Part shown: piece by piece, positions 3 through 4,703 of the stretch
Position numbering within the stretch: the first letter of the stretch is position 1
Layout of the letters: each line of letters starts with the position of its first letter
Assembly: GCA_020432595.1 (NCBI GenBank)
Contig: JAGQGA010000380.1
Location: forward strand, 1-5,742
From: Anaerolineales bacterium
GTDB lineage: Bacteria > Chloroflexota > Anaerolineae > Promineifilales > Promineifilaceae
Length of the DNA: 5,742 bases
Direction: 5' to 3'
Made by a program: the position numbers and the translations under genes
Notes under the pieces: generated by a model
Told to the model about the DNA's origin: nothing
Databases searched by the model: none
Seen by the model: only the letters and a program-made list of their open reading frames with translations

Positions 3-467
3 GAACTCAGCCGCGCCCTGGTCAAAGCCGTGCAAGCGGCCGGTAGCATCGTCCATGAAGGGGGCAACTTCATCACCATCGAAGGCCCCCGCTTTAGCAC
101 CAAGGGAGAATCCCACACCTATCGCCGCTGGGGGATGGATTTGATTGGCATGACAAGCTGTCCCGAAGCGTTCCTGGCCGCCGAAGCAGAAATGGCCTAC
201 GCCGCCATGGCCCACATCACCGACTATGACGTGTGGCATGAAAGCGAGCAGCCGGTAACGGTGGAAATGGTCATCCGCATTTTACTGGCAAATACGGCAC
301 TGGCACAGCAGGCTATCGTCCAATTGGTGGCCGACATGGACAACTGGGCCGGCGATTTTCCCGTTCACCACACCCTGCGCGATGCCCTCATCACCAACCG
401 CGAACTGATTCCAGCGCAGTTGAGGCAAGATTTGGCTCCGCTGGTAGAAAAATATTTGGAAATATGA
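3..467 (+). CDS. mtnP: S-methyl-5'-thioadenosine phosphorylase, C-terminal part (5' end outside window)
   Basis: This enzyme phosphorolyses 5'-methylthioadenosine to adenine and 5-methylthioribose-1-phosphate in the cytoplasm, the first step of methionine salvage and polyamine by-product recycling. The frame is open from the window edge and leaves 154 residues, roughly the second half of a family protein that is usually about 280-290 residues. Visible signatures, numbered from the first complete codon at 3, are EGPRFST at 27-33 (phosphate/ribose site region), YRRWGMDLIGMTSCPEAFLAAEAEMAY (nucleoside phosphorylase family 2 core), and ITDYDVWHE, whose aspartates belong to the purine-binding TDYD motif. 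The TDYDxW form and the MTSCPE stretch favour MTAP over purine nucleoside phosphorylase. The C-terminal helix ends in EKYLEI before TGA. The stop overlaps the next ATG by four bases (ATGA). The N-terminus and the true start are not visible. A close homologue acting on methylthioinosine cannot be excluded. Confidence 0.93.
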   Translation, partial: ELSRALVKAVQAAGSIVHEGGNFITIEGPRFSTKGESHTYRRWGMDLIGMTSCPEAFLAAEAEMAYAAMAHITDYDVWHESEQPVTVEMVIRILLANTALAQQAIVQLVADMDNWAGDFPVHHTLRDALITNRELIPAQLRQDLAPLVEKYLEI

Positions 468-1768
468 TGAAAGATATGCAACTGCGTTTCTCGTCTTTGA
501 TTGTAATTCTTGGCATTATTCTGTTAGGCACAACGACCTTAGCCAGTTCAACACTTTGGGCAAAAGAGGTAAATGCCGCTACAAAAATTTACCTGCCATA
601 TATTGCCAAGCCGTCAACGATTAAAAGCCAAATTACCAAAAAGGTGCTTGAACTTCCAATACAGTTGGAGGATTCTGCCGGAAGCTGGTGTACCTGGGGA
701 GGATGTACCATTGGACCGCGTTTGTATCATGCACCACTACCAAATAACAACACATTAGTTGGCTGGACTGACAAAAATGGCAATGGGCACATTAGCCTTG
801 TGACTTCTGACAGTGTCACCCACTGGAACTTCGCTGGCACGTCTATTCGTGGACTAGTCGGGCATGAAGACAATTCCTTTGCCGTTTTACTTTGGAATCC
901 AACCCAAAAAGTCATCAAACTGTCTAGGCGGAGTGCCACAAATGTGGAAATCTGGTCAACAAATCTTAATAGTTCCATAGCAGTCGCTGATTTCTGGTTA
1001 GGAGACGGCCGTTTAACCTATGGCAACAACCTTTACGCGGCCTATTTTACTGTTAAGGGAACAGCGGGGGGTTTCACAGGTCATCATGGCGATCAGATGA
1101 GCTATGTGGATAGCAGTGGCAACAAACTGCCAGGGAATTTTCCCAATGGCTGGGACTGGGGTTGTTCGCACTCAATGGCACAATCAATAGCCTATCATCC
1201 TGGTCTAGGAAAATTTGCGGCCATCTGCTCTAGCGACTGTTACCCAGCCGCTAGTATTCATTGGGTCAATGCTTCCCATCAAATTTATCAAGGAGCAGGA
1301 AATTGTGGTGGTAATGTTTCTACGCAGTTGGGGCAAATGGCTTTAGGTAATGACAGTTGGAAATTGGTTTTTAACGCTATAGCACAGCCTTGTTGTGAAG
1401 GTAAAGGGATTGCTTTAGCAACATTAGATAAGCAAGAAGGCAGTCACTACAGTTGGCTAACAAACAGTCAAGGCGCTTTTGAGCGAGACCCCGTGATTGC
1501 TCGCCTTGGCGCTAATTCCGCTATTGAAAAATATGTGGTTGGATGGCTAACAACCAATAACAATCAATATCTGCTTGGAGTCATTGACGCGGCAGGCCAT
1601 TTTCTCATTAATCCTGAAAACGTTTCTACAGCAGGCATCGGGTGGGGCAATCGAGATGACTCGTTCCACACACGATATGATGGCACTGTCTCTTGGGTGC
1701 AAGGTGATCCCAATGCACAAACGATTTCCCTGTTTGTTTTTGACCCAGCGCCATTTATGGCACCCTAA
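464..1768 (+). CDS. secreted cysteine-containing protein of unknown function, probably beta-propeller-like
   Basis: I do not recognise a characterised function. The 434-residue product starts with a Sec-type signal peptide: the hydrophobic stretch SSLIVILGIILLGTTTLA spans about residues 10-27, with possible cleavage near VNA-A at 38-39. IYLPYIAKP (42-50) follows directly, a segment type I associate with exported Chloroflexota proteins. The mature part has eight cysteines (76, 81, 234, 255, 259, 281, 310, 311), compatible with disulfides outside the cell. Notable motifs are GHHGDQ (206-211), GWDWGCSHSM (229-238) and CSSDCYP (255-261), a cluster that might bind metal or form a structural core. 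Recurrent W/G-rich strand pairs (around 98-113, 357-378 and 407-427) suggest propeller blades; this is inference. The start overlaps the mtnP stop. ATG at 467 or 476 is also possible, and GGAA at 458-461 best fits 467. Base composition is much lower in GC than its neighbours (one 60-base line at 1321 is 40% GC, against 65% for a line at 3841), which suggests a later arrival or lineage-specific gene. Confidence 0.8.
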   Translation: MMKDMQLRFSSLIVILGIILLGTTTLASSTLWAKEVNAATKIYLPYIAKPSTIKSQITKKVLELPIQLEDSAGSWCTWGGCTIGPRLYHAPLPNNNTLVGWTDKNGNGHISLVTSDSVTHWNFAGTSIRGLVGHEDNSFAVLLWNPTQKVIKLSRRSATNVEIWSTNLNSSIAVADFWLGDGRLTYGNNLYAAYFTVKGTAGGFTGHHGDQMSYVDSSGNKLPGNFPNGWDWGCSHSMAQSIAYHPGLGKFAAICSSDCYPAASIHWVNASHQIYQGAGNCGGNVSTQLGQMALGNDSWKLVFNAIAQPCCEGKGIALATLDKQEGSHYSWLTNSQGAFERDPVIARLGANSAIEKYVVGWLTTNNNQYLLGVIDAAGHFLINPENVSTAGIGWGNRDDSFHTRYDGTVSWVQGDPNAQTISLFVFDPAPFMAP

Positions 1769-1979: not shown

Positions 1980-3275
1980 ATGACCCTCTCGCTTCCTGCC
2001 GATGAGCAGGCTGAAATAAACGGCCGTCGTGAAACCCTGCTGCTGATTTTGGCGGCGGTGTTTGTGGGGATAACGGCCGTTAACATCAGCCTCGTCACCC
2101 GCCAAACCATCCACTTAGCCCACTTGTGGGCGCCTCTGCTTTGGCTGGCATTTAGCGGCACCGCCCACTGGCTGCTGCGCCGCGCCAAACCAGTGCACGA
2201 CCCCTACTTGCTCCCCCTCTTTGCCCTGCTCACCGGCTGGGGGCTAATTCTCATTGACCGCCTCGCCGTCAACTTTTTGCTGCGGCAAGTTGTGTGGGTG
2301 GGGTTGGCAACGGCCGTTTTTACCGCCACCGCCATCCTGCCCCCCAACCTGCGCCTGCTGCAACGCTATCGCTACACCCTGCTCATCAGCGGGCTGCTGC
2401 TGCTGGCTGCCACCCTGCTGCTGGGGGTCAATCCGTCTGGCTTTGGCGCAGCCCTCTGGCTGCCCGTCCCCTTCACCAGCGGCATCTACTTCCAACCCTC
2501 CGAACTGCTCAAGCTGCTGCTGCTCATCTTCCTCGCCAGTTATTTTCATGAGCGCGACACTGTGCTGCAACTCAGCAGCCAGCGCGGCCCCATCGGCGTG
2601 CTGCCCTATCTTGGCCCCTTGCTGCTGATGTGGGGGTTTTGCGTGCTTTTGCTGGTGTGGCAGCAAGATTTGGGGGCAGCCACCCTCTTTTTTATCCTCT
2701 TCCTCAGCCAACTTTATCTGGCAACGGGCAGCAAATGGTATGTCGTGGGCGGGCTGGGGCTGCTGCTGTTGGCCGGGATGATTGGCTATTTTGCCTTTGA
2801 CGTGGTGGCACTGCGCGTCAATGCCTGGTGGAACCCGTGGCCCGATGCCGACGGCCGCGCCTTCCAAATTGTGCAGTCGCTTTACGCGTTGGCGGCGGGC
2901 GGCGTGGGTGGGCAAGGGGTTGGGCAAGGGTTCCCCGTCTACATCCCCGTTGTCCACTCCGACTTTGCCTTTGCCGCCATTGCCGAGGAATGGGGGCTGG
3001 TGGGCAGCTTGAGCGTGGTGGCCTGCTTTGCGCTGCTGGCCCAGCGGGGGTTACGGGTGGCGATGTTGGCAAAACGGCCGTTTTCCACCTACCTCGCTGC
3101 CGGAATCACCGTCCTTTTCAGCGCCCAAGCGTTCCTCATCATGGGCGGCGTCACCAAGCTGCTCCCCCTGACCGGCGTAACCCTCCCCTTCGTCAGCTAC
3201 GGCGGCAGTTCGCTGTTGGTCAGCAGCATCATGGCCGGGCTGCTGGTGCATTTGTCGGCGGAGGAGGGAGGGTAG
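1980..3275 (+). CDS. rodA: SEDS-family peptidoglycan glycosyltransferase (FtsW/RodA/SpoVE)
   Basis: This polytopic inner-membrane protein of 431 residues, with about ten to twelve hydrophobic segments, should polymerise lipid II into glycan strands together with a class B PBP. Family signatures are FQPSELLKL (171-179), WQQDLGAATLFF (227-238), R279 in LRVNAWWNPWPDADG, then AFQIVQSLYALAAGG(V)GG (294-310), HSDFAFAAIAEE (326-337) and the C-terminal LPLTGVTLPFVSYGGSSLL (395-413). D328 corresponds to the essential aspartate of the fourth large extracellular loop in RodA (the HTDFIF motif), so the enzyme looks active. The start at 1980 is the first in-frame ATG after an in-frame TGA at 1953. The partner PBP gene follows 81 bases later, an order like rodA-pbpA of actinobacteria, which is why that symbol is preferred; sequence alone does not separate RodA from FtsW. 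The gene contains four copies of the ACGGCCGT palindrome. Confidence 0.93.
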   Translation: MTLSLPADEQAEINGRRETLLLILAAVFVGITAVNISLVTRQTIHLAHLWAPLLWLAFSGTAHWLLRRAKPVHDPYLLPLFALLTGWGLILIDRLAVNFLLRQVVWVGLATAVFTATAILPPNLRLLQRYRYTLLISGLLLLAATLLLGVNPSGFGAALWLPVPFTSGIYFQPSELLKLLLLIFLASYFHERDTVLQLSSQRGPIGVLPYLGPLLLMWGFCVLLLVWQQDLGAATLFFILFLSQLYLATGSKWYVVGGLGLLLLAGMIGYFAFDVVALRVNAWWNPWPDADGRAFQIVQSLYALAAGGVGGQGVGQGFPVYIPVVHSDFAFAAIAEEWGLVGSLSVVACFALLAQRGLRVAMLAKRPFSTYLAAGITVLFSAQAFLIMGGVTKLLPLTGVTLPFVSYGGSSLLVSSIMAGLLVHLSAEEGG

Positions 3276-3345
3276 AGATTGGGGATTGGAGATTGGGGAT
3301 TGGTCGCTGGGCTAGTGTCAATCTCCAATCCCCAATCCCCAATCT
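3276..3345 (+). repeat. long imperfect hairpin of GGGGATTGG-type repeats between the SEDS and PBP genes
   Basis: Left arm 3276-3302 and right arm 3319-3345 (27 bases each) are complementary except at two positions; as RNA one would be an A-C mismatch and the other a G-U wobble. The loop is 16 bases (3303-3318). The arms are built from iterated GGGATTGG / GAGATTGG units. The left arm begins immediately after the SEDS stop codon (TAG, 3273-3275), and the right arm ends 11 bases before the PBP ATG, leaving no room for an ordinary Shine-Dalgarno sequence. No T-run follows, so this is not a canonical intrinsic terminator. It is likely a dispersed repeat that may also attenuate, stabilise or couple expression of the two genes. 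Confidence 0.8.
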
Positions 3346-3356
3346 CCCCAAATGAT

Positions 3357-4703
3357 ATGTCCCACCGTCTCCAACACCTCAACCAACTCATCCTCGCCAG
3401 CTTTGCCGCCATCGCCCTGGCGCTGCTTTTTTGGAGCGTGCTGCGTGGCGACAGCTTGCTGCGGCGCGACGACAACCCTCGTTTGGTGGAAGCCGAGCTT
3501 CGCATCCAGCGCGGGGCGATTGTAGACCGCAACGGCACGGTGCTGGCGGTTAACGAGGGTACGCCGCAACGCCAGCTTCGCCGCTATCCGCTGCCGGGGA
3601 TGGAGCCGGCCGTTGGTTATTACAGCCTCCGTTTTGGCACCAGCGGCGTGGAGCAAAGTTTTGACCCCGTGCTGCGTGGCGACCCGGCCAGCCCGCTGCT
3701 GGCGTGGGAACAGCAATTGCTCCATCGGCCACAGGTGGGCGCGGGGGTGCAGCTAACGCTTGATGCGGGGTGGCAACAAACGGCCGTTTCCCAATTCCGC
3801 GACCAAACCGGGGCGCTGGTACTGCTAGAACTAAACGGCGATGCCCCCGCCCAAATTCGCGCCCTCGTCAGCCTGCCCGGTTACGACCCTAACCTGCTAG
3901 ATGAGCAGTTTGACGCGCTGGTGGCCGACGAAACCGCCCCCCTGCTCAACCGCGCCACCCAGGGGCAGTATCAGCCGGGGCTGCTGCTCCAGCCGTTTAT
4001 CGTGGCCGCCGCTGCCGCCAGCAACGAGCTACAGCTTAACGCCACCGTGGACAACCCCAACCGCCCCGTTCCCATTGGCAGCGTGGTAACGCGGTGCAGC
4101 AGCCGCCCGCCGGAGCCAGCTACTTGGGCCGATGTGGTAACGCACCACTGCCCGGCTCCACTGCGCGACCTGGGCGATAGGCTGGGGGCGGCGCGGCTAG
4201 ACCAGATTTTTGCCGATTTTGGCCTGACCACCCTGCCATTGCTGCCGCTGGCAACGGAAACGGCCGTTTCTGAACCGAGCAGTGACCCCGTTTTGGCGGC
4301 TATTGGGCAGGAAAACTTGACGGTAACGCCGCTGCAGTTGACGGTAGCTTTGGCGGCGTTGGGCAATAACGGCCGTTTGCCCACTCTGCAACTGGTGACG
4401 GCCAGCGGCAGCGATGCGGCTGGGTGGGAGCCGGTGATTGTGGAGGATGGAGGGAAAACGGCCGTTTCTTCCGCCACCGCCCACGCTGTTGCCCAGGCTC
4501 TACCTCAAGACAACGACAGCCTCACCTTTTCCCGCCTCGTCCTTTCTGGCCCCGAAACCAGTAACAACAGTTGGTATCTAGCCCTTGCCCCCGCCAACCA
4601 GCCCCGCTACGCCCTCGTCATCGTCGTGGAAAACAGCGACGACCGCAGCGCGGCAGCGGCCATTGGGCAAGCTTTATTGGGAGAAGTATTCAGTAATCAG
4701 TAA
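3357..4703 (+). CDS. class B penicillin-binding protein (PbpA/PBP2 type) lacking all transpeptidase active-site motifs
   Basis: The product has 448 residues. It has a short cytoplasmic N-terminus and one membrane anchor (about 11-29). The class B pedestal follows, with RGAIVDRNGTVLA (52-64) and GYYSLRFGTSGVEQSFDPVLRG (87-108). The transpeptidase-like domain runs from about LTLDAGWQQTA (133-143) and GALVLLEL...ALVSLPGYDPN (152-179). LLNRATQGQYQPG (196-208) normally precedes the SxxK serine, but here LLLQ (209-212) replaces STFK. The SxN site reads HCP (264-266), and no KTG triad occurs before SWYLALAP (405-412). VTPLQLTVALAALGNNGRLP (322-341) is otherwise well conserved, so the fold is probably intact. 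It therefore looks like a pseudoenzyme partner of the SEDS protein just upstream. The start at 3357 is chosen because the frame upstream (alternative TTG at 3279) is encoded by the hairpin repeat. The last codons lie in a tandem repeat. Four ACGGCCGT palindromes lie inside. Confidence 0.88.
   Translation: MSHRLQHLNQLILASFAAIALALLFWSVLRGDSLLRRDDNPRLVEAELRIQRGAIVDRNGTVLAVNEGTPQRQLRRYPLPGMEPAVGYYSLRFGTSGVEQSFDPVLRGDPASPLLAWEQQLLHRPQVGAGVQLTLDAGWQQTAVSQFRDQTGALVLLELNGDAPAQIRALVSLPGYDPNLLDEQFDALVADETAPLLNRATQGQYQPGLLLQPFIVAAAAASNELQLNATVDNPNRPVPIGSVVTRCSSRPPEPATWADVVTHHCPAPLRDLGDRLGAARLDQIFADFGLTTLPLLPLATETAVSEPSSDPVLAAIGQENLTVTPLQLTVALAALGNNGRLPTLQLVTASGSDAAGWEPVIVEDGGKTAVSSATAHAVAQALPQDNDSLTFSRLVLSGPETSNNSWYLALAPANQPRYALVIVVENSDDRSAAAAIGQALLGEVFSNQ

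Follow-up and report, generated by a model that had tools for sequence, protein, structure and literature searches.

Introduction

Class B penicillin-binding proteins (bPBPs) are described in one study (PMC12713402) as activating their SEDS partners selectively and allosterically; there, a catalytically dead SpoVD still allows asymmetric division via SpoVE, and formation of the spore cortex depends on active SpoVD. The regulatory function of Staphylococcus aureus PBP1 persists without activity, its transpeptidase activity being nonetheless essential, as stated in the available part of PMC9426605. In the Escherichia coli model, as outlined in an excerpt of PMC6207328, RodA is activated by PBP2, and the accessible text of PMC10449877 reports that the transmembrane helix of PBP2 alone stimulates E. 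coli RodA, and that natural SEDS–PBP fusions are already known in general. Whether a PBP paired with SEDS is indispensable for catalysis or for activation is a question so far addressed by engineering dead mutants. Here we describe a 5,742-nucleotide stretch of DNA from an Anaerolineales bacterium (hereafter, the window), in which a SEDS gene is directly followed by a gene for a PBP without the SxxK, SxN, and KTG motifs.

Overall structure of the PBP

The gene at 3357–4703 on the forward strand is one unbroken open reading frame (ORF) from ATG to stop, and its 448-residue product is a PbpA-type class B PBP, matching the Pfam transpeptidase domain (PF00905; E-value, 3.5e-19) and the PbpA dimerisation domain (PF21922; E-value, 2.5e-07), both above the cut-off. 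A first-pass annotation of the sequence had placed the protein at 3963–4577. The residue numbering used there fits the ATG at 3357, but the range spans only the motif-bearing part of the gene, and the RGAIVDRNG stretch that was quoted lies upstream of it. Structure prediction, which had been proposed as a check, confidently gives a PbpA-like fold. In the AF2 model, a helix at residues 2–29 (3360–3443), which after the known family we take to be the membrane anchor, precedes the juxtamembrane or pedestal region (residues 36–127; 3462–3737), matched by PF21922, and the transpeptidase-fold domain (residues 128–448; 3738–4700; mean pLDDT, 92.1), assigned from PF00905, the model, and fold matches. 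For the predicted model of a fused SEDS–PBP chain, the PDB matches listed cover the PBP part.

Loss of the catalytic motifs

In the phmmer alignment with Mycobacterium tuberculosis PbpA, STFK is replaced by LLLQ and SCN by HCP in the window PBP, the Ser and Lys columns of SxxK being occupied by Leu209 and Gln212, and no KTG is found before the SWYLAL strand. Alignment to the PDB entries 3un7 and 3lo7, together with the homologue columns, places the SxxK replacement, Leu209-Leu-Leu-Gln212, at 3981–3992; the SxN replacement, His264-Cys265-Pro266, is encoded at 4146–4154, and the end of the strand normally bearing KTG, Leu396-Ser-Gly-Pro399, at 4542–4553 as located by alignments and the AF2 model. 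The protein contains a single Lys, the non-conserved Lys367 (4455–4457), and its only Cys residues are 247 and 265; nowhere in its 448 residues does an S..K string occur. A Ser/Lys pair displaced to another part of the chain, which the first-pass annotation had named as a finding that would overturn its reading, is therefore impossible, and this candidate was rejected.

The same loss was found throughout the homologues. The window PBP was aligned with the best 120 of 910 matches of a first database search (121 rows in all), and two further searches, with a Thermoflexus-type and a fused-type relative as queries, contributed the best 120 of 795 and the best 120 of 423 matches; the 360 homologues so listed are all distinct sequences. 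Among the 121 rows, residue 209 is never Ser, residues 212 and 266 are Gln and Pro in every row, columns 390–399 hold no Lys, and no Lys column is conserved, the best reaching 31/121. None of the 240 homologues from the two more distant queries has an SxxK-like, SxN, or KTG-like motif in its PBP part; in 361/361 rows (the window and the best 120 of each search), the three motifs are missing at their sites. Among the 360 complete homologue sequences, 24 contain a stray K[TS]G and five a stray SxxK-like string; the five are fused proteins with the string in their SEDS half, and none of these strings coincides with a motif site. The S..K string is likewise found somewhere in 11 of the 121 rows, and two dead rows of the phylogenetic tree described below (L001 and L119) have K[TS]G in their C-terminal part, again not at a motif site. 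In that tree, Ser209 with Lys212, or Ser264 with Asn266, is present in none of the 64 dead rows, whereas all four residues are present in 58/58 intact rows. As judged from sequence, the PBP family is demonstrably dead. The earlier claim that LLLQ, HCP, and the missing KTG represent the loss of all three transpeptidase motifs is thus confirmed by the phmmer alignment and by the 361 rows, and the suggested orthologue survey finds the losses common to all 360 listed homologues; no intact close relative was encountered, intact orthologues appearing only further away, in other Chloroflexota.

Conserved cysteine pair

Cys247 (4095–4097) and Cys265 are both kept in all 361 rows (121/121 for the first search and 240/240 for the two others). 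Of the 64 dead rows in the tree, 61 have both residues, L156 shows one, and L028 and L029 have neither; Cys occupies the same two columns in only 8 of the 58 intact rows. According to the accessible part of a paper on Acinetobacter baumannii PBP2 (PMC9974482), the x residue of SxN touches a β-hairpin lying over the active site, with a disulfide in M. tuberculosis PbpA, and Cys at this position in other PBPs is a zinc ligand in the portion seen of PMC9334274. By analogy, a Cys247–Cys265 disulfide probably staples the lid hairpin to the old SxN loop, holding the emptied site in place.

The invariance of the two residues in the 361 rows might also be taken as a sign of newly gained chemistry, with Cys265 or Cys247 acting, for example, as a nucleophile. 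We regard this as very improbable: the two tree rows without either Cys (L028 and L029) argue against it, active PBPs are known in which the x residue of SxN is a Cys that forms a disulfide or binds zinc (PMC9974482 and PMC9334274), and Cys265 is not preceded by a conserved His, residue 263 being His in 88 of the 121 rows.

SEDS partner and gene fusion

The gene directly upstream of the PBP gene, at 1980–3275 on the forward strand, encodes a SEDS glycan polymerase (FTSW_RODA_SPOVE; PF01098; E-value, 2.3e-71), assigned as the partner of the dead PBP. In the SEDS tree it clusters with the SEDS proteins of PbpA modules, both dead and intact, and is separate from 20 FtsW/RodA rows taken from ten relatives' genomes. 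Asp328 (2961–2963), presumably the catalytic aspartate, and Arg279, Gln299, Glu336, and Glu337 are retained in 24/24 dead-linked, 22/22 intact-linked, and 20/20 FtsW/RodA rows. The Asp328 column is also Asp in 46/46 rows of another alignment, ten of these rows being repeats of the same genes; the conservation of His326 depends on the alignment, with 46/46 in the one containing the ten repeated genes and 17/24 dead-linked rows in another.

A SEDS gene adjoins the dead PBP in the window and in 49 of 53 other dead loci, 23 of them having both in one frame. In three of the remaining four (L003, L006, and L024), the start of the locus lies too near the PBP gene, and L026 is the exception. In L026, the dead PBP (ORF 9899–11320) has no SEDS gene that could be found within ~10 kb on either side. 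The single-frame arrangement was counted in 23 of 50 dead loci including the window (the 64 dead rows minus ten P rows, L003, L006, L024, and L026), as compared with 2 of 32 intact SEDS-linked loci (58 rows minus 26 without SEDS beside them by the adjacency rule), and requires at least ten changes on the tree. L147 and L041 are single SEDS–PBP frames with intact motifs, so that a dead transpeptidase is not required for fusion.

Three SEDS genes were found in each of the 24 dead-bearing genomes searched; among ten genomes with intact modules, eight have three, one has four (the fourth below the cut-off), and one has two. All of the 24 dead-bearing genomes also encode at least one separate protein of class B size, as judged by frame length, with SxxK and KTG, an outcome in favour of the first-pass annotation, which had proposed a search for a second, intact class B PBP. 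By pattern, 58 of the 60 PF00905 loci from the 24 genomes, including the best match of each, carry SxxK and KTG, and fewer carry SxN. Two further SEDS proteins and intact transpeptidases would leave the third SEDS free to specialise, and there is a small chance that its unit with the pseudo-PBP makes another envelope glycan needing no peptide cross-links, rather than ordinary peptidoglycan. The SEDS of the module, however, retains residues common to FtsW and RodA, and the orthologous module of other Chloroflexota has an intact transpeptidase, both of which speak against such a product.

Several other features of the window are noted here. A phosphorylase gene and the SEDS gene are adjacent in several relatives, such as L005, L010, and L012, so that the ORF of 434 residues lying between them in the window (464–1768), which has no match in Pfam or NCBIfam, looks inserted. 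Ahead of the SEDS gene, at 1840–1925, nested perfect inverted repeats of 13 nucleotides may form a small element of a mobile or terminator-like kind, and the gap between the SEDS and PBP genes (3275–3346) contains a 28-nucleotide inverted repeat, 93% complementary and made of repeated GGGGATTGG-like units. The palindrome AACGGCCGTT occurs seven times in the window (2072, 2309, 3073, 3779, 4259, 4368, and 4457; 0.01 expected), always inside the SEDS or PBP gene. It reaches 16 copies in one related locus, with none in 163 of 202 loci, and is a highly iterated palindrome of part of the window's lineage.

Selection and shifted constraint

The dN/dS values (NG86) of dead PBPs range from 0.061 to 0.206 over nine pairs of relatives chosen for their closeness, the window gene not being among them, and those of SEDS from 0.041 to 0.122 over eight pairs. 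A decaying gene or a local mutation might be suspected from the loss at three motif sites, but the continuous frame, the loss common to all 360 listed relatives, and the low dN/dS in relatives make this explanation of negligible probability. On the same grounds sequencing error was rejected, as the first-pass annotation had anticipated from the unbroken frame, and the candidate of a pseudogene under relaxed selection was discarded in view of the intact window frame and the low dN/dS in relatives.

Region identities were expressed relative to residues 36–448, with L041, L042, and pairs of >60% or <25% identity excluded. The pedestal, which in class B PBPs faces the SEDS partner, gives a ratio of 1.18 in dead rows as compared with 0.87 in intact rows, and the transpeptidase domain 0.95 as compared with 1.04. 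Constraint has thus moved toward the pedestal in the dead rows, as would be expected if contact with SEDS, not catalysis, were selected. The old pocket is still conserved: for 39 positions of our choosing around the former motifs, the ratio is 1.48 in dead and 1.64 in intact rows.

These surroundings are the most conserved part of the dead domain, and six residues (Gln202, Gln206, Gln212, Cys265, Pro266, and Trp406) are invariant in the 121 rows of the window subfamily, three of which (Gln206, Gln212, and Pro266) occur in none of the 58 intact rows. Such a pattern would suit a domain acting mainly as a ligand sensor, which would gate the SEDS polymerase by binding stem peptides, or some other ligand of the envelope, in the old pocket; this would be compatible with the activator role proposed below, the selected property being binding. 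We consider it unlikely as the main explanation, since the pocket residues vary between dead subclades, leaving no single ligand site common to all (residue 212 is Gln in 121/121 rows of the window subfamily, Gln in 94 or Glu in 24 of 120 Thermoflexus-type sequences, and Phe in 75 or Leu in 32 of 120 fused-type sequences), and since the conservation of the pocket may be structural.

Distribution and origin of the dead family

The named homologue records all belong to Chloroflexota, comprising Anaerolineae, Ardenticatenaceae, Candidatus Leptofilum, Brevefilum, and others; the fused type is represented by a record named Brevefilum sp. (P0338). A scan of genome contigs gave 42 loci, of which 39 are dead (L001–L038 and L040) and three (L039, L041, and L042) have SxxK. 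Of 400 genomes scanned across the phylum, 342 gave matches, paralogues included; among the 70 loci examined, which are the top-ranked and other hand-chosen ones, 15 are dead and 55 intact, counting as intact L143, which ends before the KTG site (L039 is the L153 protein).

In the PBP tree (122 rows, with the motif columns removed), the 64 dead and 58 intact rows lie on opposite sides of one branch with an SH-aLRT support of 95, and two rows from outside Chloroflexota sit on the intact side; this topology allows a single loss of the motifs. The PBP and SEDS trees are both quick searches with SH-aLRT support only and a midpoint root, L103, a repeat of L005, being excluded. The SEDS tree also parts dead-linked from intact-linked rows with the sole exception of L123, which has its SEDS among the intact modules; in the PBP tree, L123 forms a long branch at the edge of the dead side. 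The motifs have therefore probably been lost a second time, independently, in L123. This locus, from genome G021, encodes a fused dead SEDS–PBP with the same Cys pair. The gene order phosphorylase–SEDS–PBP is also found in the intact loci L139 and L144, and the usual number of SEDS genes is the same in genomes with dead and intact modules; accordingly, the dead gene has the appearance of an inactivated orthologue and not of an extra paralogue.

Proposed role of the pseudo-transpeptidase

The active site is lost, yet selection has retained the protein, in many cases as one chain with the polymerase. These findings suggest that the SEDS-partner PBP of many Chloroflexota survives as a switch or scaffold, not as an enzyme. 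We consider it probable that the pseudo-transpeptidase is kept as an activator and scaffold of a third SEDS polymerase while other PBPs carry out the cross-linking, the activation and the division of labour being inferred. In the mechanism that we propose, the class B PBP keeps its presumed anchor, its pedestal, and its transpeptidase fold, with the residues for acylation gone, and would pair with the upstream SEDS polymerase, as one fused chain in many relatives, most likely serving as its allosteric activator and scaffold. The SEDS polymerase would make glycan strands, the intact PBPs of the cell would cross-link them, and the former active site would stay folded, probably stapled by Cys247 and Cys265. 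The idea in the first-pass annotation that a dead PBP would be left with the activating role fits the neighbouring SEDS gene, the fused chains, and the greater relative constraint on the pedestal.

Two observations count against the activator and scaffold role: PBP catalysis is essential in model systems (SpoVD for the cortex, and S. aureus PBP1), and L026 has no SEDS nearby. In addition, the PBP2 helix alone stimulates E. coli RodA, so that activation by itself leaves the retained transpeptidase fold and pocket unexplained; sensing or scaffolding may be an additional task of these parts. More tentatively, and with somewhat less than even confidence, we picture a branch of Chloroflexota with a third peptidoglycan polymerase whose built-in transpeptidase is now a locked, disulfide-stapled regulatory lid, having arisen mainly through one ancient loss. 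If so, a SEDS synthase makes strands without itself cross-linking them, and its partner offers β-lactams no Ser to acylate.

Comparison with known systems

Dead bPBP mutants and natural SEDS–PBP fusions are already known; among the open-access literature matches listed, titles and the beginnings of abstracts showed no conserved natural family of SEDS-linked dead bPBPs. Evolution appears to have run the dead-PBP experiment over hundreds of sequences with the protein kept, and within the family, residues retained for the control of SEDS can be told apart from those for catalysis. The natural single-chain SEDS/pseudo-PBP proteins provide material for structural work, and the annotation "penicillin-binding transpeptidase domain-containing protein" carried by members is probably wrong about function.

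In comparison with M. tuberculosis PbpA (PDB entries 3un7 and 3lo7) and the PbpA-type proteins of Atopobium and Eggerthella (4qjg, 4jbf, and 4mnr), SxxK, SxN, and KTG are all missing in the window PBP. As in the RodA–PBP2, FtsW–FtsI, and SpoVE–SpoVD pairs, the SEDS gene lies directly upstream and the SEDS residues are kept; unlike in those pairs, the bPBP partner is dead by nature, as read from its residues, and not by engineered mutation. The engineered dead forms of Clostridioides difficile SpoVD (S311A) and Bacillus subtilis PBP2B (accessible part of PMC12713402) and S. aureus PBP1* (accessible part of PMC9426605) resemble the window PBP in having a non-catalytic role, that of SpoVD being exerted via SEDS, as would be the role proposed here. 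These are, however, laboratory mutants of active enzymes whose catalysis counts at other points of the life cycle, whereas the dead state described here is conserved over many lineages.
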